Shown: positions 51,537 to 64,000 of the stretch, piece after piece | How positions within the stretch are numbered: the stretch's first letter is position 1 | Layout: each line of letters opens with the position of its first letter | DNA from: Amycolatopsis balhimycina FH 1894 | Lineage (GTDB): Bacteria > Actinomycetota > Actinomycetes > Mycobacteriales > Pseudonocardiaceae | Assembly (NCBI RefSeq): GCF_000384295.1 | Contig: NZ_KB913037.1 | Span: 10,718,228-10,782,227, forward strand | Direction: 5' to 3' | DNA length: 64,000 bases | Notes under the pieces: generated by a model | What the model saw: the letters and a program-made list of their open reading frames with translations, nothing else | Database searches by the model: none | What the model was told of the DNA's origin: nothing | Program-made: the position numbers and the translations under genes

Positions 51537-52651
51537 CCGATCAGCTCCCGCAGCTTGTCCGCCGCCTTCAGGCCCGACCCGGTGAGCACGACGACGGTGG
51601 TTTCGCCGGGCCGGATCGCGCCGCGGGCGCGGAAGACGTCGATGGCCGCGGCGGCGGTCGCGCTCGTCGGCTCGGCGTAGAGACCGAGGGACGCGAGACG
51701 GCGGGCGGCCGCGGCGATGGCGTCCTCCTCGATCGCGGCGGTGTCGCCGCCCGAGCGCCGGATCGCCGCGACGACTTCGGGGAGCCGCACCGGCTGCCGG
51801 ATCGCGGTCCCCTCGGCGACGGTCGGGGCGAACGGCGGTGGCGGCCGGTCGTGGAAGGCCGCGTCGACGGGCGAGCAGTTCCGCGGCTGGGCGACCAGCA
51901 GCCGCGGTCGCTTCGCGATCGACCCGGCGGCCAGCAGCTCGCCGAACCCGAGGTCGCAGCCCAGCACGATGCTGCCCGCGCCGGCGACGGTGACGACGGC
52001 GTCCGGCGCGCGGAAGCCGAGGTCTTCCCACAGCTCGTAGGCGAGGGTCTTGGTGCCCTGCAGGAAGAACGGGTGCCAGTTGTGGCTCGCGTAGGTCGTG
52101 CGGGCCGAGCGGCGGACAGCTTCGGCGGCGGTGTCGTCGCGCGTGCCGGGCACCAGTTCGACGGCCGCGCCGTACGCTCGGGTTTGCAGCACCTTCGCGG
52201 GTGACGTCCCCTGGGGGGCGAGGACGGTCGCCGAGATCCCGGCCGCGGCGCTGTAGGCCGCCACCGACGAGCCGCCGTTGCCGGAGCTGTCTTCCAGGAG
52301 CTCCCGCACCCCGGCGCCGGCCAGCGCGGAGATCATGACGCTGGAACCGCGGTCCTTGAAGCTGCCGGTCGGGCTGAACCACTCGAGCTTGAACCGGACG
52401 TCGCCGCTGTGACCGCCGTCCCAGGCCCGCGGGACCAGGGGAGTGCAGCCTTCGCCCAGCGACACCGGATCGAGGTCGCCGGGCAGGGCGGCCCGGTACC
52501 GCCAGAGCGAGCGGACGCGTGCGTCGACGTCGCCGGGCGTGAGGCCGGCCAGCGGAGGCACCGTCAGCGGCGCGCCGTCGTCACCGCGCCAGCGCCGCGG
52601 GTCGCCGGGGTACCGCACCCCCGAGCGCTCGTCGGTGTACCAGTACTCCAC
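51533..52651 (-). CDS. PLP-dependent enzyme, threonine-synthase-like (fold type II)
   Basis: A 372-residue protein. The PLP lysine is in PTGSFKDRGSSVMISAL and the phosphate-binding loop is EDSSGNGGSSVAAYSAAAG. GTG 52651 is preferred because GGAGG is well spaced. An N-terminal zinc-ribbon or clamp region of true threonine synthase is missing, so a beta-elimination or amino acid lyase role (diaminopropionate or threonine/serine ammonia-lyase type) is as likely. It is coupled to the YheO-type regulator gene. Confidence 0.75.
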   Translation of the reverse strand: MEYWYTDERSGVRYPGDPRRWRGDDGAPLTVPPLAGLTPGDVDARVRSLWRYRAALPGDLDPVSLGEGCTPLVPRAWDGGHSGDVRFKLEWFSPTGSFKDRGSSVMISALAGAGVRELLEDSSGNGGSSVAAYSAAAGISATVLAPQGTSPAKVLQTRAYGAAVELVPGTRDDTAAEAVRRSARTTYASHNWHPFFLQGTKTLAYELWEDLGFRAPDAVVTVAGAGSIVLGCDLGFGELLAAGSIAKRPRLLVAQPRNCSPVDAAFHDRPPPPFAPTVAEGTAIRQPVRLPEVVAAIRRSGGDTAAIEEDAIAAAARRLASLGLYAEPTSATAAAAIDVFRARGAIRPGETTVVVLTGSGLKAADKLRELIG

Positions 52652-52688
52652 GACCACCTCCGCTGCTGCTGGACATACAGTCCAAGTG

Positions 52689-52703
52689 TAGACGATACGT
52701 CTA
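52689..52703. promoter_or_regulatory. Palindromic operator upstream of the PLP-enzyme operon
   Basis: TAGACGATACGTCTA has 6-base arms around ATA and lies 38 bp upstream of the GTG start. A site for the YheO-type regulator is a reasonable guess. Confidence 0.5.
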
Positions 52704-53419
52704 TTGCTACTGGCTGGTATGCGAATCCTCTTCAGCTTTTTCTCAGGAAAAGCGTTAACGCGACGATGGAAAATTTCAGTCATCGCCGCCAATCGGAGTA
52801 CCGATGGTGGTCGCCCGAATGCTCTCGGTCGTCCGCGCCGTGAACCCGGCCGCCTTCGCGGCTTCCTCTTCACGCTCGCGTGAGCACCGGGAACCCCGGT
52901 GTTCGCCTAATCCACAGTGGACCAGAAGCGGTGTGCGGTGGCGGTCGTCGAATTCTTCGGACGGTTCTGAGGGCACTTCGTAAAATTGACGGAAAACGTA
53001 TCCCTCCGGCCGGTGAACCGGCGGTCTTCGCGCTTGCCGAAGCGGAGTTCGAACGGCTCGGGTTTACCGTCCGGATACTTCGTGGTGGCCCGGCGGAAAC
53101 GCCGTACCCGCCGGTCGGAGTGGGCCGGTGTGGGCAACCGTACTGCGTCCACCAGGCGGGAGGGCTTGCGCCGTCCGGTCGGCACGTCCGCCGGACCAGC
53201 GGCGGAACCGGTCCGGAGGCCGGGCGCGGACAATGCTCCTCCGGTGCCCGGGTGCGGGGAACGTGACGGCGGCGTTAAATTCTTGCGCCATCGGCCTGGT
53301 CGGTCCCGAATTTTCTGAACCGCCGCTATGAAATCGTGGCGGGTTGTTGACGTCATCGAAGGAACCCGCTTAAGTACTCCCCGTTACCCATCACCCTTTC
53401 GTGCGTAGCGGGAGTTCCC
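52704..53419. other. Long intergenic region before the synthase genes
   Basis: About 700 bp with lower GC than the flanks (for example AGCTTTTTCTCAGGAAAAGC near 52733 and AAAATTTCAG near 52770). Short open frames occur on both strands, but none has a motif or a convincing start. It probably carries the promoter and leader of the PUFA-synthase-like operon. A GGGAG site precedes the ATG at 53420. Confidence 0.4.
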
Positions 53420-56400
53420 ATGCGTCTCTCGAAAGACGACTCCGTGCCGGCCGACCTGGTCGTCGCCGTGTCGCCGCTGCGATCGCCGTCGGCGCGCGGG
53501 GTCGCGGCCGCCGCGCGTGGGGGCGGGCTCGGCGTGCTCGACCTGACCGGCGGCGGTGCCGCGGCCGCGGAAGAGCTCGCGGTGCTGGGAGAATGGGGCG
53601 TGCCGGCGTTCGGGGTCCGGCTCGCGGGCCCGGCCGGCCCGGCACTCCCGGACGCCGTGACCACCGTCCTGCTGACCGAAGACTGCCCGAGCCCGGCCCG
53701 TGACTTCCCGGGACGCCGGGTGCTGGCCGAGGTCACCTCCCGCGCGTCGGCCGCGCGGGCGGTCGCCGGTGGCGCTCACGGCCTGATCGCCCGCGGTCAC
53801 GAATGCGGCGGCCGCACGGGTGAGCTCAGCACGTACGTGTTACTTCAAGCCTTGCTCGACGACGAGACCCTGGACGTCCCGGTGTGGGCGGCGGGCGGGA
53901 TCGGGCCGCACACCGCCGCGGCGGCGGTCGCGGGCGGTGCGGCCGGCGTCGTGGTGGACACGCAGCTCGCGCTGCTCCCGGAGGCCGAACTGCCGTCGGC
54001 GCTGACCGTCGCCCTGACCGGTCTCGACGGCTCCGAAACCGTGGTCGTGGACGGTGTCCGCGTCCTGTCCCGCCGGGGGCCGGCCGGCGGAACGACGATC
54101 GAAGCCGGGCAGGACGTCTTCCTGGCCACCCGGTTCCGCGACCGCTGGGGCACGGTAACCGCCGCGGTGCGGGGCCTGCGCGACGCCATCGGCGAGGCCT
54201 TGGGCGCCGAGACCCCGGTGCTGGGCCCCGGCAGCGCGGGCAGCCGCGCCTTCGGCACGGCACTGCCGGTCGCGCAGGGCCCGATGACGCGCGTCAGCGA
54301 CCAGCCCGCGTTCGCGGCCGCGGTCGCTTCGGGCGGCGCGCTGCCGTTCATCGCGCTGGCCCTGTCCGGCGCGGACCAGACCCGCGACGTCCTGGAACGG
54401 ACCCGTGAAACCGTCGGCGACGCGCCTTGGGGCGTCGGTGTCCTCGGGTTCGCCGCCGACGACGTCAAAGCCGCGCAGCTGGCGGTGATCCGCGAGGTAC
54501 GGCCGACGCACGCGATCATCGCCGGCGGCCGCCCGGCCCAGGCCGCCGCCCTGGAGGAAGCCGGCATCTCGACGTTCCTCCACGTGCCCTCGCCGGGACT
54601 GCTCAAGCAGTTCCTCGAGGCAGGCGCGCGCAAGTTCGTCTTCGAAGGCTCGGAATGCGGCGGGCACGTCGGCCCGCGCACCAGCTTCCCGTTGTGGGAA
54701 GCCCAGCTCGGCGTCCTCGCCGACTTCCTCGCGGGCACGCCGGACGCCGCCGCGGACCTGCAGGTGCTCTTCGCCGGCGGGATCCACGACGAGCGTTCGG
54801 CCGCCATGGTGGCCGCCCTCGCCGCCCCGGTGGCGACACGCGGCGCGGCCGTCGGGGTGCTGATGGGCACCGCCTACCTGTTCACCCGCGAGGCCGTCGA
54901 CGCGGGCGCCGTCCTCCCGCTGTTCCAGCGCCGGCTCCTGGCAGCCGAGCGGACCGACCTCCTGGAAACCGCGCCGGGCCACGCCACCCGCTGCGTCCGC
55001 AGCCCGTTCACCGAGGAGTACGCGGCGATCAAGGCGGACCTCGCCGAGCGCGGCGTGCCGAGCCGCGACGCGTGGGAACACCTGGAGACGCTCAACGTCG
55101 GACGGCTGCGCCTGGCGAGCAAGGGCATCGAGCGCGTCGGCTCCGAACTGCGTGACGTCGGTGAAGACCGCCAGCTCGCCGAGGGCATGTTCATGGCGGG
55201 CGAGGTCGCCGTGCTCCGCTCGGCCGTCACCACGATCGCCGGCCTGCACCACTCGGTGGGTGCGGGTGCGAACGCGTTCCTGCGCGCGCGGGCCGCCGAA
55301 TTCGGCATCGCCGCGACGGAACAGCCGGAACCGGCGGCACCCGCGCCGCTGGACATCGCGATCGTCGGCATGGCCTGCATGTTCCCGCAGGCCCCGGACT
55401 TGGCCGCGTTCTGGGCGAACGTGCTGTCCGGCGCCGACGCGGTGACCGAGGTGCCCCCGCAGCGCTGGGACACCTCCCTCTACTACGACCCTGACGGTCA
55501 GGGGGAGCGGACGCCGTCGCGCTGGGGCGGGTTCCTGCCGGAGATCGGGTTCGACCCGCTGAAGTACGGCATCCCGCCGGCCTCGCTCGCCAGCATCGAA
55601 CCCGTGCAGCTGCTGGCCCTCGAGGCCGCGCACCGCGCGCTGGCCGACGCGGGGTACGCCGAGCGCGCGTTCGACCGGGCCCGGACGTCGGTGGTGTTCG
55701 GCGCGGAGGCGGGCAGCGACCTGTCGAACGCGATGACCCTGCGGTCGGTGCTGCCGTCGTATCTGGGCGAACTGCCGTCCGAACTGGACGAACGGCTGCC
55801 GCGGATCACCGACGACTCCTTCCCGGGCGTGCTCGCCAACGTGATCGCCGGGCGGATCGCCAACCGGCTCGACCTGGGCGGGGCCAACTACACCGTCGAC
55901 GCCGCGTGCGCGTCTTCGCTGACCGCCGTCGACGTCGCCTGCAAGGAGCTGACCGCCGGCACCAGCGACCTCGTCCTCTGCGGCGGCGCGGACCTGCACA
56001 ACGGCATCAACGACTACCTCCTGTTCGCCTCGGCGCACGCCCTCTCGCCGACCGGGCGGTCGGCGACGTTCGACAGCGCGGCCGACGGCATCGCGCTGGG
56101 CGAAGGCGTCGCCTGCGTCGCGCTGAAACGCCTCGCCGACGCCGAACGCGACGGCGACCGCGTGTACGCCGTGATCAAGGGCGTCGGGGCGGCTTCGGAC
56201 GGCCGCGCGCTCGGGCTCACCGCGCCACGCCCGGAAGGCCAGCACACCGCGTTGACCCGGGCCTACCGCAACGCCGGCGTCTCGCCCGCGCGCGTCGGGC
56301 TCGTCGAGGCGCACGGCACGGGCACCGTCGTCGGCGACCGGACCGAGCTCGGCACGCTGACGAAGGTGTTCACCGAGGCCGGCGCCGAGCCGGGCGCTTG

Positions 56401-59400
56401 CACGATCGGGTCGGTGAAGTCCCAGATCGGGCACACCAAGTGCGCCGCGGGCCTGGCCGGGCTGATCAAGGCCGCGCTGGCGCTGCACACCGGCGTCAAA
56501 CCGCCGACGCTGCACCTTTCGTCGCCGAACCCGGCGTGGGATCCCGAGACCAGCCCGTTCGTGTTCCAGTCGGCCGCGCAGCCGTGGACCGCGCCGCCGG
56601 CCGACCGGCTCGCCGGGGTCAGCGCGTTCGGCTTCGGCGGGACCAACTTCCACGTCGTGCTCCGCGCGCACGACGGCGTGCCGCCCGCGCAGGCGGCGGA
56701 CGAGTGGCCCGCCGAGCTGTTCACCTTCACGACGGACTCCGCGGCGCGGGCGCTGCTGGCGCTGGCTTCGGAAGTCCCGGCGGACCGGCAGCCGTGGCGG
56801 CTGCGCGACCTCGCCCTCAGCGCGTCCCGGCGGGCCGAAGCGGCGGGCGGGCGGATCCGCCTGGCCGTCGTCGCGTCCACTGTGGACGAACTGGCCGGCC
56901 TGCTGCGGCGGGCGCTCGCCGGTGAGGACGCGCCGGGCCTCTACCGTGCGGGCGACGACGAGCCGGGTGCGGTCGCGGTGTTGTTCCCGGGCCAGGGCAG
57001 CCAGCGGCCGGGCATGTTCGCCGAGCTGTTCGTCACCTTCCCCGAGCTGCAGCGGTACCTGCGCCTGGACCCGGACACGGCCGAGGTCGTGTTCGGGCCC
57101 GCGGTGTTCGGCGAACGCGAGCGCCAGGCGCTCGCCGAGCGCGTCACGGACACCCGCGTCGCCCAGCCCGCGCTCGGCCTCACCGGGCTGGCCGCCTTCC
57201 GGCTGCTGACCCGCGCCGGCGTGCGGCCCGCGATGGTGGGCGGGCACAGCTACGGAGAACTGACGGCGCTGGCCGCGGCCGGCGCCCTCACACCCGAAGC
57301 GCTGCTGCACGCCAGCCACGTCCGGGCCGGGGCGATCCTCGACGCGGTGCCGCCGTCCGACCCGGGCGCGATGGCCGCGGTCGCCGCGTCCGCGGCGGAC
57401 ACCGGGAAGGTGCTCGCCGACGCCGGGCTCGACGCGGTCGTCCTCGCGAACCACAACTCGCCCCGGCAGACGGTGATCTCCGGGCCGACCGCCGACGTCG
57501 AAGCGGCCGTCGTCCAGCTGCGCGACGCGGGGCTCGGCGCGAAACGGATCCCGGTCGCCTGCGGCTTCCACAGCCCCCTGGTCGCCCCCGCGGGGGAGGC
57601 GCTCGGCCGCGCCCTGGAAGCGATCGGCGTCGTGCGGCCCGCCGTCCCGGTGTACGGCAACCGGACCGCGGCGCCCTATCCGGCGGACCCCGACGAGATC
57701 CGCGCCGAACTGGCCGCGCAAGTGGGTTCACCCGTCCGGTTCGTCGAACAGGTCGAAGCGATGTACTCGGCTGGGGCGCGCGTGTTCGTCGAGGCCGGCC
57801 CCGGAGCCGTGCTGGCCAAGCAGGTCGCCGCCATCCTCGGCGACCGGCCGCACCGCACGGCCGGGTTCGAGCAGCCGGGCCGCCGCGGCCTGCCGGGCTT
57901 CCTCGGCGCGCTCGCGCAGCTGGCGGTGTCCGGGGCGCCCGTCGAGACCGGCTGGCTGTTCCGCGGCCGCGACGCGGTCGACGCGGCGACGGCCCCGCGG
58001 CCGAAGCGTCCCGGGTGGACGGTCGACGGTCACCTGCTCCGCACCGCGGACGGCGCGATCCCGGCTGGTGCGTTGCGGCCGGCCGAACGGGTTTCGCTCG
58101 GTTTCGCGCCCGCGGCCCCGCAGGCGGCCACGTCGGAGGCGATGGTCGCGGACTTCCTGCGCACGAGCCGCGAGATGATCGCGGCCCAGCGGGACGTGCT
58201 CCTCGGCTTCCTCGGCACCGACGCGCCCTTGCCGCTCTCCGCGCCGCTCCCGGTTTCGCCGCCGGTCATCGAGCAGCCCACGGTGGTGCCGGTCGTGGTT
58301 TCACCGTCGAAGGCCGCGTCGGTGCTGGAGACGGTGGTGGAGGTGATCGGGGAGCGGACGGGGTATCCGGTGGAGATGATCGAGCCGGATCTCGATCTGG
58401 AAGCCGACCTGAGCATCGACTCGATCAAGCGGGCCGAGATCGCGGGCGAACTGGCCTCCCGGCTGGGGCTGGCCGGTGGGGACGTGGAGGAGTTCGCGAA
58501 GGCCCGGACGGCTGCCGCGATCGCCGAGCTGATCGGTGACGAGCCCTCCGATGCGGCGCCGGAGACGGTGTCGGTGCTGGAGACCGTGGTCGAGGTGATC
58601 GGGGAGCGGACCGGGTATCCGGTGGAGATGATCGAGCCGGATCTCGATCTGGAAGCCGACCTGAGCATCGACTCCATCAAGCGGGCCGAGATCGCCGGTG
58701 AGCTGGCCACCCGGCTGAACCTCGACACCGGTGGCGACGTCGAAGAGCTGGCCAAGGCGCGGACCGCCGCGGCGATCGCGAAGCTCGTCGGCAGAGGACA
58801 GCCGGAACCGGACAAGCCTGCGGCACCGCCGGTGCAGGCTCCCACCGAGCCCGCACCGGTCATCGTCGCGCCGAAACGCCTGGTCATGGCCGAGTTCGAG
58901 CTGGCGACGGCCGAGACCCCCGACGTCACCGGCCGCAAGTTCCTCCTCCTCGGCCGCGGGCCACTCGCCGAGGCCGTCCGGACCCGGCTCACCGGGCTGG
59001 GCGCGACCGCCGAACTCGCCGACGACGTCCGTGCCGGGTTCGACGGGGTCCTCTTCCTGCCGGACGGCGGCCCGGTCCTGCCCGCCGCCTTCCCCCAGTA
59101 CCAGGCCGCCCTGGCGGCGAAGCCCGCCTGGCTGCTGACCGCCGGGCCCGGCGAGGGCTTGCGCGGCTTCCACCGCAGCCTCGCCCGCGAGTACCCGGAC
59201 ACGCTCACCCGCGTGGTCGAACTGTCCCCGGCCGAAAGCCCGGAAACGCGGGCCGCCGCGTTCGCCGCCGAGCTGTCCACTGTGGACCGCGAGCCCGTCG
59301 TCGTGCGGGAAGCCGGCTCCCGCAGGGGGCTCCGCATGACCGAGCAGGGACTCGGCCTGCTCGGCAGCAGCGGCGCGGGCCCGGCAGGCGACGGGGCCGC

Positions 59401-60253
59401 CGAAGCGGCCGCGCTCGGCCTGGACCGCGACTCGGTCGTCCTGCTCGTCGGCGGCGCCAAGGGCATCACCGCCCGCTTCGCCGTCACCCTGGCCGGCACC
59501 GCCCGCTGCCGGATCGAACTGCTCGGCCGGACGCCGGTGCCCGCGGCGGAAGACGAGTACCCGCAGGCGAAGACGGCCAAAGATCTCCGGGCGGCCCTGA
59601 TCGACGCGGGCCTGAAGAGCCCCGCCGAGATCGAACGGACGGTCCGCCGGATCCTCGGCGAACGCGAGGTCCGGCAGACCCTGGACAAGCTCGAAGCCCT
59701 CGGTAGCCCGGTGCGCTACCAGTCGGTCGACATGCTCGACGCCGAAGCCGTGCACCGCGCGGTCAAGGAGATCCACGCCGAGCACGGCCGCCTCGACGGC
59801 ATCGTCTACGCGGCCGGGGTGATCGAGGACAAGCTCGTCGCCGAAAAGACGCCGGAGTCGTTCGGCCGCGTGTACGGCACGAAGGTCGACGGTGCCCGGA
59901 CTCTCCTGGAGGCGACCGCCGACCTGCCCGACGAGCCGACGTTCGTCGTCCTGTTCGGCAGCATCGCCGCGACGCTCGGCAACCGCGGCCAGTCGGACTA
60001 CGCCGCCGCCAACGACGCACTCGAGTCGCTGGGACGCCGGTGGCCCGCCGGGCGGGCGGTGACCGTCCACTGGGGACCGTGGGCCCCGACCGGTGACCAC
60101 GACGGCATGGTGACACCCGAGCTGATGCGCGACTACGCCCGCCGCGGCATCGCGCTGATCGATCCGGAGGAAGGCACCCTCGGCCTGCTGCGCGAGCTGG
60201 CGTGGGGCCGCCCGGAAACCGCCGCCGTCGTCCACACCGCTTCGGGCTGGTGA
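53420..60253 (+). CDS. PUFA-synthase-like megasynthase: PfaD-like x2, KS-AT-ACP-ACP-KR
   Basis: A 2277-residue iterative type I synthase. Residues 1-235 resemble half of a nitronate-monooxygenase/PfaD flavin domain (GHECGG at 126-131, WAAGGI). Residues about 275-620 are a fuller PfaD-like enoyl reductase (ALPVAQGPMTRVSD, GSECGGHVGPR at 410-420, LFAGGIHDERS). KS follows at about 644-1080 with C830 (DAACASS), H965 (EAHGTGT) and H1005 (SQIGH). AT is at about 1185-1480 (GQGSQ, GHSYGE with S1277, GFHS). Two ACPs carry S1668 and S1752 (LSIDSIK). KR is at about 1845-2270 (VGGAKGIT, FGSIAATLGNRGQSDYAAAN). In marine Pfa systems the reductase is a separate protein. All active sites appear intact. The product is unknown. 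Confidence 0.9.
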   Translation: MRLSKDDSVPADLVVAVSPLRSPSARGVAAAARGGGLGVLDLTGGGAAAAEELAVLGEWGVPAFGVRLAGPAGPALPDAVTTVLLTEDCPSPARDFPGRRVLAEVTSRASAARAVAGGAHGLIARGHECGGRTGELSTYVLLQALLDDETLDVPVWAAGGIGPHTAAAAVAGGAAGVVVDTQLALLPEAELPSALTVALTGLDGSETVVVDGVRVLSRRGPAGGTTIEAGQDVFLATRFRDRWGTVTAAVRGLRDAIGEALGAETPVLGPGSAGSRAFGTALPVAQGPMTRVSDQPAFAAAVASGGALPFIALALSGADQTRDVLERTRETVGDAPWGVGVLGFAADDVKAAQLAVIREVRPTHAIIAGGRPAQAAALEEAGISTFLHVPSPGLLKQFLEAGARKFVFEGSECGGHVGPRTSFPLWEAQLGVLADFLAGTPDAAADLQVLFAGGIHDERSAAMVAALAAPVATRGAAVGVLMGTAYLFTREAVDAGAVLPLFQRRLLAAERTDLLETAPGHATRCVRSPFTEEYAAIKADLAERGVPSRDAWEHLETLNVGRLRLASKGIERVGSELRDVGEDRQLAEGMFMAGEVAVLRSAVTTIAGLHHSVGAGANAFLRARAAEFGIAATEQPEPAAPAPLDIAIVGMACMFPQAPDLAAFWANVLSGADAVTEVPPQRWDTSLYYDPDGQGERTPSRWGGFLPEIGFDPLKYGIPPASLASIEPVQLLALEAAHRALADAGYAERAFDRARTSVVFGAEAGSDLSNAMTLRSVLPSYLGELPSELDERLPRITDDSFPGVLANVIAGRIANRLDLGGANYTVDAACASSLTAVDVACKELTAGTSDLVLCGGADLHNGINDYLLFASAHALSPTGRSATFDSAADGIALGEGVACVALKRLADAERDGDRVYAVIKGVGAASDGRALGLTAPRPEGQHTALTRAYRNAGVSPARVGLVEAHGTGTVVGDRTELGTLTKVFTEAGAEPGACTIGSVKSQIGHTKCAAGLAGLIKAALALHTGVKPPTLHLSSPNPAWDPETSPFVFQSAAQPWTAPPADRLAGVSAFGFGGTNFHVVLRAHDGVPPAQAADEWPAELFTFTTDSAARALLALASEVPADRQPWRLRDLALSASRRAEAAGGRIRLAVVASTVDELAGLLRRALAGEDAPGLYRAGDDEPGAVAVLFPGQGSQRPGMFAELFVTFPELQRYLRLDPDTAEVVFGPAVFGERERQALAERVTDTRVAQPALGLTGLAAFRLLTRAGVRPAMVGGHSYGELTALAAAGALTPEALLHASHVRAGAILDAVPPSDPGAMAAVAASAADTGKVLADAGLDAVVLANHNSPRQTVISGPTADVEAAVVQLRDAGLGAKRIPVACGFHSPLVAPAGEALGRALEAIGVVRPAVPVYGNRTAAPYPADPDEIRAELAAQVGSPVRFVEQVEAMYSAGARVFVEAGPGAVLAKQVAAILGDRPHRTAGFEQPGRRGLPGFLGALAQLAVSGAPVETGWLFRGRDAVDAATAPRPKRPGWTVDGHLLRTADGAIPAGALRPAERVSLGFAPAAPQAATSEAMVADFLRTSREMIAAQRDVLLGFLGTDAPLPLSAPLPVSPPVIEQPTVVPVVVSPSKAASVLETVVEVIGERTGYPVEMIEPDLDLEADLSIDSIKRAEIAGELASRLGLAGGDVEEFAKARTAAAIAELIGDEPSDAAPETVSVLETVVEVIGERTGYPVEMIEPDLDLEADLSIDSIKRAEIAGELATRLNLDTGGDVEELAKARTAAAIAKLVGRGQPEPDKPAAPPVQAPTEPAPVIVAPKRLVMAEFELATAETPDVTGRKFLLLGRGPLAEAVRTRLTGLGATAELADDVRAGFDGVLFLPDGGPVLPAAFPQYQAALAAKPAWLLTAGPGEGLRGFHRSLAREYPDTLTRVVELSPAESPETRAAAFAAELSTVDREPVVVREAGSRRGLRMTEQGLGLLGSSGAGPAGDGAAEAAALGLDRDSVVLLVGGAKGITARFAVTLAGTARCRIELLGRTPVPAAEDEYPQAKTAKDLRAALIDAGLKSPAEIERTVRRILGEREVRQTLDKLEALGSPVRYQSVDMLDAEAVHRAVKEIHAEHGRLDGIVYAAGVIEDKLVAEKTPESFGRVYGTKVDGARTLLEATADLPDEPTFVVLFGSIAATLGNRGQSDYAAANDALESLGRRWPAGRAVTVHWGPWAPTGDHDGMVTPELMRDYARRGIALIDPEEGTLGLLRELAWGRPETAAVVHTASGW
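58319..58694 (+). repeat. Near-identical tandem ACP-coding repeats
   Basis: A 124-bp block (58319-58442) recurs at 58571-58694, exactly 252 bp (84 codons) later, with about four differences, all at third positions. Both copies keep less-favoured codons such as TAT and GAT, so they were recently duplicated or homogenised by gene conversion. Confidence 0.85.
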
Positions 60254-63200
60254 CGCGGATGCCGGGCCCCGTGGCGATCGTCGGGATGTCGGTGCTGCTG
60301 CCCGGCGCCCCCGACCTGGCGGCCTACTGGCGCAACCTCGTCGGCGGCGTCGACGCGATCACCGAGGTCCCGCCGGAGAAGTGGGACGGCGAGCACTACG
60401 CGCCGGGTGAGCGGCGGGCCGACCGGGTCTACTGCCGGCGCGGCGGCTTCGTCGACGAACTGGCCGAAGTGGACGTCACCGGGTTCGGGATCATGCCGAA
60501 CTCCGTGCCGTCCACCGAACCCGACCAGCTGATCGCGCTGCGGGTCGCCGCGCAGGCCGTCGCGGACGCGGGCGGGCCGGACCGGCTGCCCGCCGACCGT
60601 GCGAAGGTCGGCGTCGTCCTCGGCCGCGGCGGTTACCTGACGCCGGGGCTGGTCCGGCTCGACCAGCGCGTCCGCACCGCGAGCCAGCTCGTCCGCACCC
60701 TCGGCGAGCTGCTGCCCGACCTCGATCCGGCGCGCTTGGACGCCGTCCGCCAGGCCTTCACCGACCAGCTCGGCCCCGAGGCACCGGAGTCCGCGATCGG
60801 GCTGGTGCCCAACCTGGCCGCGTCGCGGCTGGCCAACCGGCTCGACCTGCGCGGGCCCGCGTACACAGTGGACGCCGCGTGCGCGTCCTCGCTGATCGCC
60901 GTCGACCACGCCGTGCGCGAACTCGCCACCGGACGCTGCGACGTCGTGCTCGCCGGCGGGGTGCACCACTGCCACGACATCACCTTCTGGAGCGTGTTCA
61001 ACCAGCTCGGCGCGCTGTCGCCGTCCGAGCGCATCCGGCCCTTCCACCGGGACGCCGACGGCGTGCTGATCGGCGAAGGCACCGGAATCGTCGTGCTCAA
61101 ACGCCTCGCCGACGCCCAGCGCGACGGCGACCGCGTCTACGCCGTGATCACCGGCACCGGCGTCGCCTCCGACGGGCGGACCGCGAGCCTGGCCAACCCG
61201 GACTCCGGCGGCCAGGTCCGGGCGGTCCGTCAGGCGTGGGCGGCGGCCGGCCTCGACCCGGCCGACCCGGACTCCCTCGGCCTCTTGGAGGCGCACGGCA
61301 CGGCGACCCCGGCCGGCGACGCGGCCGAGCTGGCCACGCTGGCGGAGGTGTTCGGAAGCGCGGGCTCCGCCGTGCTGGGCTCGGTCAAGTCGATGATCGG
61401 CCACACGATGCCCGCGGCCGGGATCGCCGGGCTCGTCAAGGCGGCACTGGCCGTGCACCACGGCGTCCTGCTCCCCACCCTGCACTGCGACGACCCGCAC
61501 CCCGCTCTCGCGAAGACCCGCTTCTCTACTTTGGACAGTGCCCGGCCGTGGGACGCGCCGGTTCGCCGCGCCGGGGTCAACGCGTTCGGGTTCGGCGGGA
61601 TCAACGCCCACGTCGTGCTGGAGCAGGCACCGGGCCACGCGAAGCCGGTCGTGGTGCGCGAGCCCGAACGCGTGCTGCGGCTCGCCGCGCGGTCGGTCGG
61701 CGAGCTGCGGGACCAGCTCGACCGGCCCGGTCACCCCGAGCTCGGCGACGGCCCGGTCCGGCTCGGCATCGTCGACCCGACGGAGAAGCGGCTGGCCCTG
61801 GCGAGGAAGGCGGTCGGCCGGGGCAAGCCGTGGCGCGGGCGCAACGACGTCTGGTTCGCCGACCGCCCCCTGCTCGGGCCGGGCGGCGGCAAGGTCGCCT
61901 TCGTCTTCCCCGGCCTCGAGTCGGAGCTCACGCTGAACTGCGGCGACGTCGCCCGCCACTTCGGCCTGCCGTGGAAGCACGCGGACGTCGAGGTCGGCGA
62001 CGTCGGACGGCAGGGCGCCGCGGTGTTCGAGCTGGGCAGGCTGCTGCACGCCGCCCTCGGGCGGATCGGCGTCACGCCGGACGCCGTCGCCGGGCACAGC
62101 CTGGGCGAATGGACGGCGATGGCGGTGGCCGGCGTCCACGCCGAAGCCGAGGTCGACGCCTTCCTCGCCGGGTTCGACCCGGACGCGCTCGCCGTCCCCG
62201 GCCTCACCTTCGCCGCGATCGGCGCGCCCGCGCCCCGGGTGCTCGAGGAGCTGGCCGGCCGCGCGGACGTCGTCCTCTCCCACGACAACTCCCCGAACCA
62301 GGCCATGGTCTGCGGCCCGGCCGCGGCGGTCGGCGCGCTCGTGGACCGGTTCCGGGCCGCGGGGATCGTGGCGCAGGTACTGCCCTTCCGGTCCGGCTTC
62401 CACACCCCGATGCTGCGGCCGTACCTCGACCCGATCCGCGAAGCGGCCGGGAGTTTCGCCCTGTACCCGCCGAAGCTGCCGCTGTGGTCGGCGACCACGG
62501 TGTCGGAGTACCCGGCGGGCGAAGCCGAGGTCCGCGAGCTGTTCGTGCGGCACCTGCTGGAACCGGTCCGGTTCCGCCCGCTCGTGCGGGCGCTGCACGC
62601 CGCCGGGTTCCGCGCGTTCGTCCAGGTGGGCGCCGGGCAGCTCGGCTCCCTGGTCGGCGACACCCTGCACGGCGAGGAACACCTCGTCGTGGCGGCGCAC
62701 TCGGCGCACCGCCCCGGCCTCGCGCAGCTGCGCCGGGTCGCGACCGGGCTGTGGGTCGACGGGCTCGACGTCGATTTGACCCGCCTGCCTGGTGAGCGCC
62801 CGGCCGCGCCAAGGGGCGTCAAGCTCGACCTCGGCGGCCGCCTGATCTCCCTGGACGAGCAGGTCCGCGCCCGGATCGCGCTGCCGGCCACCGGAAAGTC
62901 CACTGTGGACGAACTGGCCGGGAAGGGACCGCTCGCCGCGGAGTTCGCCGCGCTGCTGGCCGACACCGCCGAGCTGGCGTCCACCGTGCTCGCCGGCCGC
63001 CCCGATGCGTCGCTTTCCCGTGAAAGCGACGACCTGGGGCGTCGCTTTCACGTGAAAGCGACGCCACCGATGGAGCTGGACACCACCCTCGAGGTGTCGG
63101 TCGAAGCGATGCCGTACCTGCTCGACCACTGCTTCTTCAAGCAGCCGCCGCAGGCCGGCCCGGGCGACCGCTGGCCGGTCGTGCCCGCCACGACGGTGAT

Positions 63201-64000
63201 CGGCCACCTCATGCGCTTCGCCGAGCAGGCCGCGCCGGGCCACCGGGCGGTCGCGGTGCACGACGTCCGCCTCACCCAGTGGATCACGGCGGTCCCGCCG
63301 GTCACCGTGCCGGTGCGCGTCCGGCCGCACGCCCCCGGCCGGGTGCTGGCGGCCCTGGCCGGCTACTCCCAGGCCATCGTGGAACTCGCCCCGGCGTACC
63401 CGGCCGGCGCGCCCGCGCCGTGGCGGTTCCCGGCGTCGGCCGAGCAGGTGCCGGAAACCACGGCGGCCGAGCTCTACGACGACCGCTGGATGTTCCACGG
63501 CCCGCGTTTCCAGGGCGTCACCGAGCTGACCGCCGTCGGCGAACGGCACGTCCGCGCCGTGCTGACGACGCCGGCCGCGCCCGGCGCGCTGCTCGACAAC
63601 GTCGGCCAGGTGCTCGGCTACTGGATCATGTCCCGGCTGGCGGAACGCACCACCGTCTTCCCGGTCGCCATGCGCGAGATCCGGTTCCACGGCCCGCACC
63701 CGCCGCCGGGGGAGCGGCTGGAGTGCCTGGTCCGGATCACCGCGCTGACCAAGGAGTTCCTCGAAGCCGACATGCAGCTGGTCCGCGACGGGGGAGTCTG
63801 GGCCGAGTTCACCGGCTGGCGTGACCGGCGGTTCGACAGCACCCCGCACATCCGGCAGGCCGACCGCACCCCCGAGCGCTCGACGCTGTCGCTCGAGCAG
63901 CCGGGCGGCTGGGCGCTGGTGCACGAGCAGTGGCCGGACCTGGCCACCCGTGAGCTCATCATGCGCAACTACCTCGCCGGCCAGGAGCGCGACGCCTACG
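60250..64000 (+). CDS. PUFA-synthase-like second subunit: KS-AT-DH, start of PPTase (cut by window end)
   Basis: At least 1250 residues with no stop before the window ends. GTG 60250 overlaps the upstream stop by 4 bases; ATG 60259 is the alternative. Numbering from GTG: KS with C211 (DAACASS), EAHGTAT and KSMIGH; AT with S617 (AGHSLGEW); then a hot-dog dehydratase with H960 (YLLDHCFF), VVPATTVIG, FHGPRFQGV and D1116 (LLDNVGQVLGYW). The last residues (GGWALVHEQWPDLATRELIM, RNYLAGQERDAY) look like the beginning of a fused phosphopantetheinyl transferase. Unlike PfaC there is an AT in place of a chain-length factor and only one DH. Confidence 0.87.
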   Translation, partial: MTRMPGPVAIVGMSVLLPGAPDLAAYWRNLVGGVDAITEVPPEKWDGEHYAPGERRADRVYCRRGGFVDELAEVDVTGFGIMPNSVPSTEPDQLIALRVAAQAVADAGGPDRLPADRAKVGVVLGRGGYLTPGLVRLDQRVRTASQLVRTLGELLPDLDPARLDAVRQAFTDQLGPEAPESAIGLVPNLAASRLANRLDLRGPAYTVDAACASSLIAVDHAVRELATGRCDVVLAGGVHHCHDITFWSVFNQLGALSPSERIRPFHRDADGVLIGEGTGIVVLKRLADAQRDGDRVYAVITGTGVASDGRTASLANPDSGGQVRAVRQAWAAAGLDPADPDSLGLLEAHGTATPAGDAAELATLAEVFGSAGSAVLGSVKSMIGHTMPAAGIAGLVKAALAVHHGVLLPTLHCDDPHPALAKTRFSTLDSARPWDAPVRRAGVNAFGFGGINAHVVLEQAPGHAKPVVVREPERVLRLAARSVGELRDQLDRPGHPELGDGPVRLGIVDPTEKRLALARKAVGRGKPWRGRNDVWFADRPLLGPGGGKVAFVFPGLESELTLNCGDVARHFGLPWKHADVEVGDVGRQGAAVFELGRLLHAALGRIGVTPDAVAGHSLGEWTAMAVAGVHAEAEVDAFLAGFDPDALAVPGLTFAAIGAPAPRVLEELAGRADVVLSHDNSPNQAMVCGPAAAVGALVDRFRAAGIVAQVLPFRSGFHTPMLRPYLDPIREAAGSFALYPPKLPLWSATTVSEYPAGEAEVRELFVRHLLEPVRFRPLVRALHAAGFRAFVQVGAGQLGSLVGDTLHGEEHLVVAAHSAHRPGLAQLRRVATGLWVDGLDVDLTRLPGERPAAPRGVKLDLGGRLISLDEQVRARIALPATGKSTVDELAGKGPLAAEFAALLADTAELASTVLAGRPDASLSRESDDLGRRFHVKATPPMELDTTLEVSVEAMPYLLDHCFFKQPPQAGPGDRWPVVPATTVIGHLMRFAEQAAPGHRAVAVHDVRLTQWITAVPPVTVPVRVRPHAPGRVLAALAGYSQAIVELAPAYPAGAPAPWRFPASAEQVPETTAAELYDDRWMFHGPRFQGVTELTAVGERHVRAVLTTPAAPGALLDNVGQVLGYWIMSRLAERTTVFPVAMREIRFHGPHPPPGERLECLVRITALTKEFLEADMQLVRDGGVWAEFTGWRDRRFDSTPHIRQADRTPERSTLSLEQPGGWALVHEQWPDLATRELIMRNYLAGQERDAY
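63008..63063. repeat. Two 24-bp parS-like palindromes inside the synthase gene
   Basis: 63040-63063 is a perfect 24-bp palindrome built as CGTCGC-TTTCACGTGAAA-GCGACG. 63008-63031 is the same with one central change (TTTCCCGTGAAA). They are 8 bp apart and encode the AT-DH linker (SLSRESDD, RRFHVKA). The inner 12 bp equal the core of the parS site, but the next base on each side differs. Confidence 0.8.

Follow-up and report, generated by a model that had tools for sequence, protein, structure and literature searches.

A conserved actinomycete operon for a predicted iterative lipid synthase with one active-type and one degenerate enoyl reductase barrel

The last part of a 64,000-nucleotide stretch of Amycolatopsis balhimycina FH 1894 DNA (the window, positions 10718228-10782227 of a genome that consists of one contig of 10.86 Mb) holds the beginning of an operon whose first two genes code for large multidomain proteins, here named P1 and P2. 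We think it likely that P1 and P2 together act as an iterative type I fatty acid synthase, one that belongs to an actinobacterial secondary lipid class and supplies a glycolipid with a long acyl chain, hydroxylated in part. Because the synthase genes lie upstream of one for sugar attachment, the product is probably an unusual sugar-bearing lipid. Two flavin-type barrels are fused at the N terminus of P1; one is of the active enoyl reductase (ER) type and the other is degenerate.

P1 is an open frame of 2277 amino acids at 53420-60253 on the forward strand, where all features described below are also located. Pfam matches to NMO (two stretches), ketoacyl-synt, Acyl_transf_1, PP-binding (two stretches) and KR, together with the open frame and the homologues, give the order degenerate ER barrel, ER barrel, ketosynthase (KS), acyltransferase (AT), two acyl carrier proteins (ACPs) and ketoreductase (KR). 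A first-pass annotation of this DNA had proposed the same KS-AT-ACP-ACP-KR arrangement with reductase barrels fused in front of it, and Pfam bears this out. The active Cys830 of KS1 (55352-56668; Pfam and KS tree) lies in the motif DAACASS, and the active Ser1277 of AT1 (56981-57937; Pfam) lies in GHSYGE; each is kept in 120 of the 120 proteins compared. ACP1 (58319-58537, ends estimated) covers the PP-binding stretch at residues 1638-1705 and has its attachment Ser1668 in the motif DLSIDSIK. ACP2 (58571-58792, ends estimated), recognised from the presence of two PP-binding stretches and from its sequence, is a near-copy of ACP1 with attachment Ser1752. The ACP serine of P1 is kept in all 116 of the 120 proteins that could be aligned at this point. 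The KR domain (59435-60085; Pfam, E 1.8e-33) contains YAAANDALE at residue 2194. A promoter scan of 52600-53700, which covers the sigma-70 type only, gave no match.

P2 starts five bases after P1 and extends from 60259 to 64587 (window numbering continued past the window end at 64000), with 1442 amino acids counted from the ATG chosen by the gene finder. Its order, established by Pfam, the gene finder and conservation, is KS2, AT2, dehydratase (DH) and phosphopantetheinyl transferase (PPTase). KS2 (60268-61710; Pfam) has an active Cys208, counted from the ATG, AT2 (Pfam stretch 62050-62634) has an active Ser614 in GHSLGE, and the DH (63061-63873, ends estimated; Pfam PS-DH) has the catalytic pair His957 and Asp1113. 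The PPTase had been suspected as a probable tail of a KS-AT-DH protein, and extending the frame past 64000 revealed it: PF01648 (ACPS) is matched in the frame of P2 at genome positions 10782467-10782778, 240 bases beyond the window end. The cysteine and one histidine of KS2, the AT2 serine, the DH histidine and aspartate, and four PPTase residues are each kept in 120 of 120 proteins, and the other KS2 histidine in 119. Since the cysteine is retained throughout, we regard KS2 as an active-looking KS and not as a chain length factor (CLF). The domain E-values in the Pfam scan of P1 and P2 range from 1.8e-64 to 5.7e-11, and at least 4388 proteins of comparable length match residues 1-640 of P1 (scoring was applied to the 7979 candidates with the most words in common, all between ~1250 and 3985 amino acids long). 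Thus, the domain set of P1 and P2 did not arise by chance.

The two N-terminal barrels of P1 differ in their active sites. FabK-type enoyl reductases combine a TIM barrel with a methionine in motif I and a histidine in motif III. Barrel 2 (54212-55315, residues ~265-632), a flavin mononucleotide (FMN)-type enoyl reductase, has all three features, with motif I GPMTRVSD at residues 287-294 and motif III ECGGH containing His416. Barrel 1 (53459-54169, residues ~14-250) has the FabK-fold TIM barrel only: Arg132 occupies the position of the catalytic histidine, and a GPM- or APM-like motif I of the GPMTRVSD kind is absent, and with it the motif I methionine. The earlier statement that every active-site residue in view is intact is therefore wrong for barrel 1, and the proposed duplication of the reductase is correct as to the number of barrels but not as to two working copies. 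The label "PfaD-like" given to them is a loose one, as both are indeed flavin-type TIM barrels but each has a better alignment with FabK than with PfaD.

The difference between the barrels is conserved. The catalytic histidine of barrel 2 is kept in 115 of 115 loci, and the same position of barrel 1 holds R in 76 of them, P in 22, Q in 3, K in 3, A in 2, H in 2, L in 1 and V in 1, with a gap in 2 and 3 not aligned. The two loci with histidine in barrel 1 are L037 and L122. Among the 120 proteins, histidine is found in barrel 2 of every one and in barrel 1 of one. With the catalytic histidine of barrel 1 lost, the presence of two active reductases in P1 was rejected, and barrel 1, judged by its conservation pattern, is probably structural rather than catalytic. 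TIM-barrel enoyl reductases are described as requiring a dimer (PMC13311796), and barrel 1, itself catalytically dead, may take the place of the second subunit in cis. It is improbable, in our estimate, that both barrels work, with barrel 1 either using another residue or being a nitronate-type oxidase that adds an oxidation step. Barrel 1 has retained the Gly-Gly pair of motif III in 108 of 115 loci and the motif III glutamate in 30 of 30 aligned, so binding of FMN or phosphate may persist; yet the histidine position drifts among R, P, T, Q, K, S, A, L and V, which is unlike the conserved replacement of a catalytic residue, and the barrel 1 of the window lacks the motif I methionine. The conserved pair of a live and a dead enoyl reductase would offer a clean and testable example of a pseudoenzyme that is fused in cis with its active counterpart.

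A tree of 61 KS domains was built to place KS1 and KS2. Of 30 KS domains of the same genome that were taken as modular, 10 were kept and 20 dropped before building, and the tree contains no row from the Type M list of PMC3098273, a class that is discussed below. KS1 groups at 99/96 with KS domains from the ars-type loci of Beijerinckia and Methylosinus and from a plasmid locus of Rhodobacteraceae, and lies weakly near PfaA-like KS (84/56). A single clade (99/97) unites the ten domains treated as modular, with KS1 and KS2 outside it, and KS2 forms a clade of its own (100/100). The first-pass annotation had named a position of both KS domains within modular polyketide synthase (PKS) clades as an argument against its proposal; KS1 is outside, and the deeper place of the KS2 clade is weak (79/77). 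The proposal itself, an iterative type I system related to polyunsaturated fatty acid (PUFA) synthases, is supported by the domain order and by the placement of KS1 outside modular PKS. One row of the tree, L176, labelled PfaA-like, falls outside the PfaA-like group; another, L060, counted among the Ars-type rows, lacks an adjacent type III PKS gene. Elsewhere in the genome, outside the window (~65000-258000 of the contig), 35 KS matches and frames of up to 11672 amino acids were observed; this is probably a very large modular PKS region near the chromosome end.

Three partner genes were found past 64000, where the first-pass annotation had suggested looking for them: a discrete ACP of 105 amino acids (64584-64901), an alpha/beta hydrolase of 269 amino acids (64898-65707) and a glycosyltransferase (GT) of 389 amino acids (65707-66876), all in window numbering continued beyond the window. 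The genes behind P2 each overlap their neighbour by 1 to 4 bases, which gives a tight five-gene operon, P1-P2-ACP-hydrolase-GT. The view that two genes could be a self-sufficient unit was thus not upheld, the conserved operon having five. At the 33 loci whose sequence extends over more than 4 kb past P2 (the A. balhimycina locus and the Ars-type Beijerinckia locus L056 included), the hydrolase is present downstream of P2 in 31, the ACP in 30 and the GT in 29. A methyltransferase of related type follows P2 in 11 of the 33 and is absent from the window locus. The same five genes and an S-adenosylmethionine (SAM) methyltransferase are found in the same order on two plasmids named as Streptomyces. 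Two genes behind the GT were rejected as members of the operon: a GNAT gene has no match outside its own locus, and an SDR gene has a strong match (89%) in one other locus, L026, only. Further away, ~17-23 kb past the window end, two adjoining large minus-strand genes of unrecognised type (587 and 1455 amino acids) were noted (L005 8874-14997).

The GT is closest to the macrolide family model TIGR01426 (159.9 bits, under the cut-off of 260), and this match brings in a different product, a short or medium bioactive polyketide, glycosylated and drug-like and no lipid, made by a reduced iterative PKS. An alpha/beta hydrolase can serve as a thioesterase, and the name type I polyketide synthase is attached to some homologues, which would also fit such a product. 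We nevertheless consider it improbable: the nearest characterised relatives (Ars, Type P) produce long acyl chains, the full set of KR, DH and ER is present, and KS1 is outside the modular clade.

A pathway for the preferred product, a glycolipid with a long, partly hydroxylated acyl chain, can be proposed. The PPTase fused in P2 would load the discrete ACP as well as those of P1, AT1 would load malonyl units, and KS1, with KS2, would condense iteratively. Each cycle would be completed by the KR of P1, the DH of P2 and the FMN barrel 2; where the DH or ER is skipped in some cycles, hydroxyls would remain. The finished acyl (or beta-hydroxyacyl) chain would move to the discrete ACP, the macrolide-type GT would glycosylate a hydroxyl, and release, transfer or lactonisation of the chain would fall to the alpha/beta hydrolase.

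Several points weigh against this pathway. No member of the class has a known product, and the sequence gives neither the degree of reduction, the chain length nor the sugar. Generic alpha/beta hydrolase models give the best matches to the hydrolase; the cut-off of Pfam Thioesterase is barely reached by the hydrolase of the Amycolatopsis operon (29 bits, cut-off 26.4), that of Allokutzneria albata, an organism considered below, is under the cut-off (22.7), and among the 25 NCBIfam models listed none reaches its cut-off on the hydrolase. Of the 33 loci, two are without the hydrolase, three without the ACP and four without the GT (L048, L050, L051 and the Ars-type L056). The deeper joint of KS2 with modular and other KS domains is weak, and long branches meet there. 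Finally, the dimer role of barrel 1 is drawn from a published property of the family (PMC13311796) and from conservation.

The operon is widespread, and its distribution bears on the kind of lipid it makes. The closest named homologues of the proteins are from Amycolatopsis. Among the matching loci listed for the N-terminal region of P1 (80 of 588 confirmed), those with a name belong to Amycolatopsis, Streptomyces, Micromonospora, Kutzneria, Kitasatospora and others. P2 is matched at E 1e-100, partial matches included, in 71 of 150 genomes of the family, and at near-full length in 40 of 150, the A. balhimycina genome included; some family genomes, for example G085 and G022, have second near-full copies. 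With near-full P2 in 40 of 150 genomes and the operon also in Streptomyces, assignment of one product would annotate many clusters at once. It is possible, though we regard it as rather unlikely, that the product is a structural lipid for the membrane or cell envelope, free of sugar-bridged macrocycles, in spores or differentiated cells. The number of family genomes with near-full P2 would agree with such a function, and there are precedents, since the Ars lipids are described as structural lipids of cysts (PMC4824345) and the synthase of heterocyst glycolipids as another secondary lipid type (PMC3098273). Against it, the distribution is patchy within the family, second copies occur in some genomes and the operon is located on Streptomyces plasmids. 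For these reasons, specialised metabolism looks likelier than a core envelope lipid.

A tentative lead to a specialised product comes from macrodilactone glycolipids. Cycloviracins and fattiviracins are described as macrodilactones of glucosylated hydroxy fatty acids, with methoxylated sugars in cycloviracin, and Kibdelosporangium albatum is described as the producer of cycloviracins (PMC4365757, PMC5168871). According to the NCBI taxonomy, Allokutzneria albata is the name for this organism. A protein named Allokutzneria albata matches the P2 of locus L035 with 100% identity across the query. A. albata carries the same operon, followed by two methyltransferases side by side. The sequenced A. 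albata strain is, we assume, the cycloviracin-producing type strain.

The operon P1-P2-ACP-hydrolase-GT may be the pathway for actinomycete macrodilactone glycolipids (cycloviracin, fattiviracin and relatives), a reading that we regard as rather unlikely. Under it, the synthase with its live/dead reductase pair would build long polyhydroxy acyl chains, the GT would glucosylate them on the discrete ACP, the alpha/beta hydrolase would join two glycosyl-acyl units head to tail into a macrodilactone, and the adjacent methyltransferases of A. albata would give the O-methyl sugars of cycloviracin. Because methyltransferases are present in A. albata and absent at the window locus, the Amycolatopsis compound would be unmethylated and fattiviracin-like. 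The presence of the operon in A. albata is by itself weak support, since near-full P2 occurs in so many family genomes, and the methyltransferase, found in 11 of the 33 loci, is not special to this organism. Two findings count against cycloviracin as the product. There is a single adjacent GT, compared to the five glucoses described for cycloviracin (PMC4365757), and A. albata has two further PfaA-like clusters, one of them above the curated PfaA cut-off. The 40 kb around each of these gave no match (E 1e-4) to the ACP, hydrolase, GT or methyltransferases, which fits the macrodilactone reading, other kinds of glycosyltransferase not having been searched for. One of these regions (L185/L186, A. 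albata G034:C1 1742000-1781999) is a PfaA/PfaBC/PfaD-like cluster with upstream genes that resemble oleABCD by eye, which suggests a polyunsaturated hydrocarbon pathway in an actinomycete. A literature search, which left most subscription journals outside, turned up no gene cluster for cycloviracin, fattiviracin or glucolypsin. If the macrodilactone reading were true, a class catalogued in 2011 without a product would have one, with antiviral macrocyclic glycolipids as the first guess.

Of the known systems, cycloviracin, fattiviracin and glucolypsin are relevant as products, being described as long hydroxy fatty acids that are glucosylated and ester-joined (PMC4365757), and are linked to the operon through genome content only. 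As an enzyme system, the PUFA synthase PfaABCDE shares with P1 and P2 the iterative KS-AT-tandem ACP-KR logic, an FMN TIM-barrel reductase and a dedicated PPTase. Unlike it, P1 and P2 have two ACPs, no CLF, one DH match, a fused FabK-like reductase pair and a second KS that bears a cysteine; the KS-CLF and two DHs of PfaC and the separate enoyl reductase PfaD have no counterpart, there being one PS-DH match and a reductase fused to P1. Among NCBIfam models, both proteins match TIGR02813 (PfaA) best (932.6 bits for P1, 456.8 for P2). This match, the tandem ACPs and the position of KS1 weakly near PfaA-like KS are what one would expect if the operon coded for a true PUFA synthase of the Pfa type that supplies PUFA for membrane lipids. 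We consider this improbable, since P1 is under the curated PfaA cut-off of 1010.1, KS2 keeps its cysteine, there is one DH match and not two, and the reductase is FabK-like and fused, whereas the other PfaA-like clusters of A. albata have a separate gene that was read by eye as PfaD (motif ADSGGH).

The closest characterised kin of P1 and P2 are the Ars fatty acid synthases of Azotobacter and Beijerinckia (Type P, arsABCD). ArsA of Azotobacter is described as making C23-C25 fatty acids, and as handing the chains bound on its ACP domain straight over to ArsB and ArsC, which are type III PKSs (PMC4824345, PMC6274091). In Beijerinckia, P1 has the same order at 42-44% identity, and in Pfam matches both Beijerinckia and Methylosinus share a protein with tandem NMO-type barrels, KS, AT, ACPs and KR and a partner with DH and PPTase. 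The Beijerinckia barrels repeat the pattern of P1, the histidine of barrel 1 being replaced (Q) and that of barrel 2 retained. The partner differs, having 629 amino acids with DH and PPTase only, whereas P2 has KS and AT too. At three other loci, L052, L053 and L054, the best P2 match starts only near residue 466-472, so the partner there seems to be without the KS part and to resemble the shorter Ars-type one. Between the large genes Beijerinckia has two whose annotation reads KAS III C-terminal domain protein, which correspond to the type III PKS of the literature, and the Amycolatopsis operon has none; the Beijerinckia locus in turn has no homologue of the discrete ACP, hydrolase or GT, with another glycosyltransferase gene annotated behind it.

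A fusion of the reductase to the first subunit had been taken as new, and this was rejected. Matches to NMO are common to the Beijerinckia and Methylosinus proteins too, at least 4388 proteins match the region, the class was published in 2011, and a fused pfaD-pfaA is reported for Ottowia in a paper on hybrid PUFA-like clusters (PMC13291983). All five Pfam matches (NMO, KS, AT, ACP and KR) are present in 96 of the 120 matching proteins listed. The 2011 survey of secondary lipid synthases describes, without a product, a Type M in Actinosynnema, Frankia, Renibacterium and Streptomyces avermitilis (Shulse and Allen, PMC3098273), which is actinobacterial, as are P1 and P2. The PPTase motifs that it gives for Type M, P1a x(G/D)xP and P1b' hShxH, are found by eye in P2 as AGRP and ISVAH. 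Two proteins named Streptomyces avermitilis, P0081 and P0086, are 72 and 71% identical to residues 1-640 of P1, and one of them may be the gene drawn in the survey. By eye, P0081 (2374 amino acids) has the barrel motifs, KS, AT, two ACPs and KR as in P1; its precomputed Pfam list is without NMO. The passages of the survey on Type M mention neither a degenerate barrel nor ACP, hydrolase and GT genes, both features of the Amycolatopsis operon. With the stated PPTase motifs in P2 and matching S. avermitilis-named proteins, one with the same order, the operon, by its sequence and the survey's text description rather than its Figure 1, fits the Type M secondary lipid synthases. The architecture is thus not new but common in actinomycetes, Streptomyces avermitilis included.

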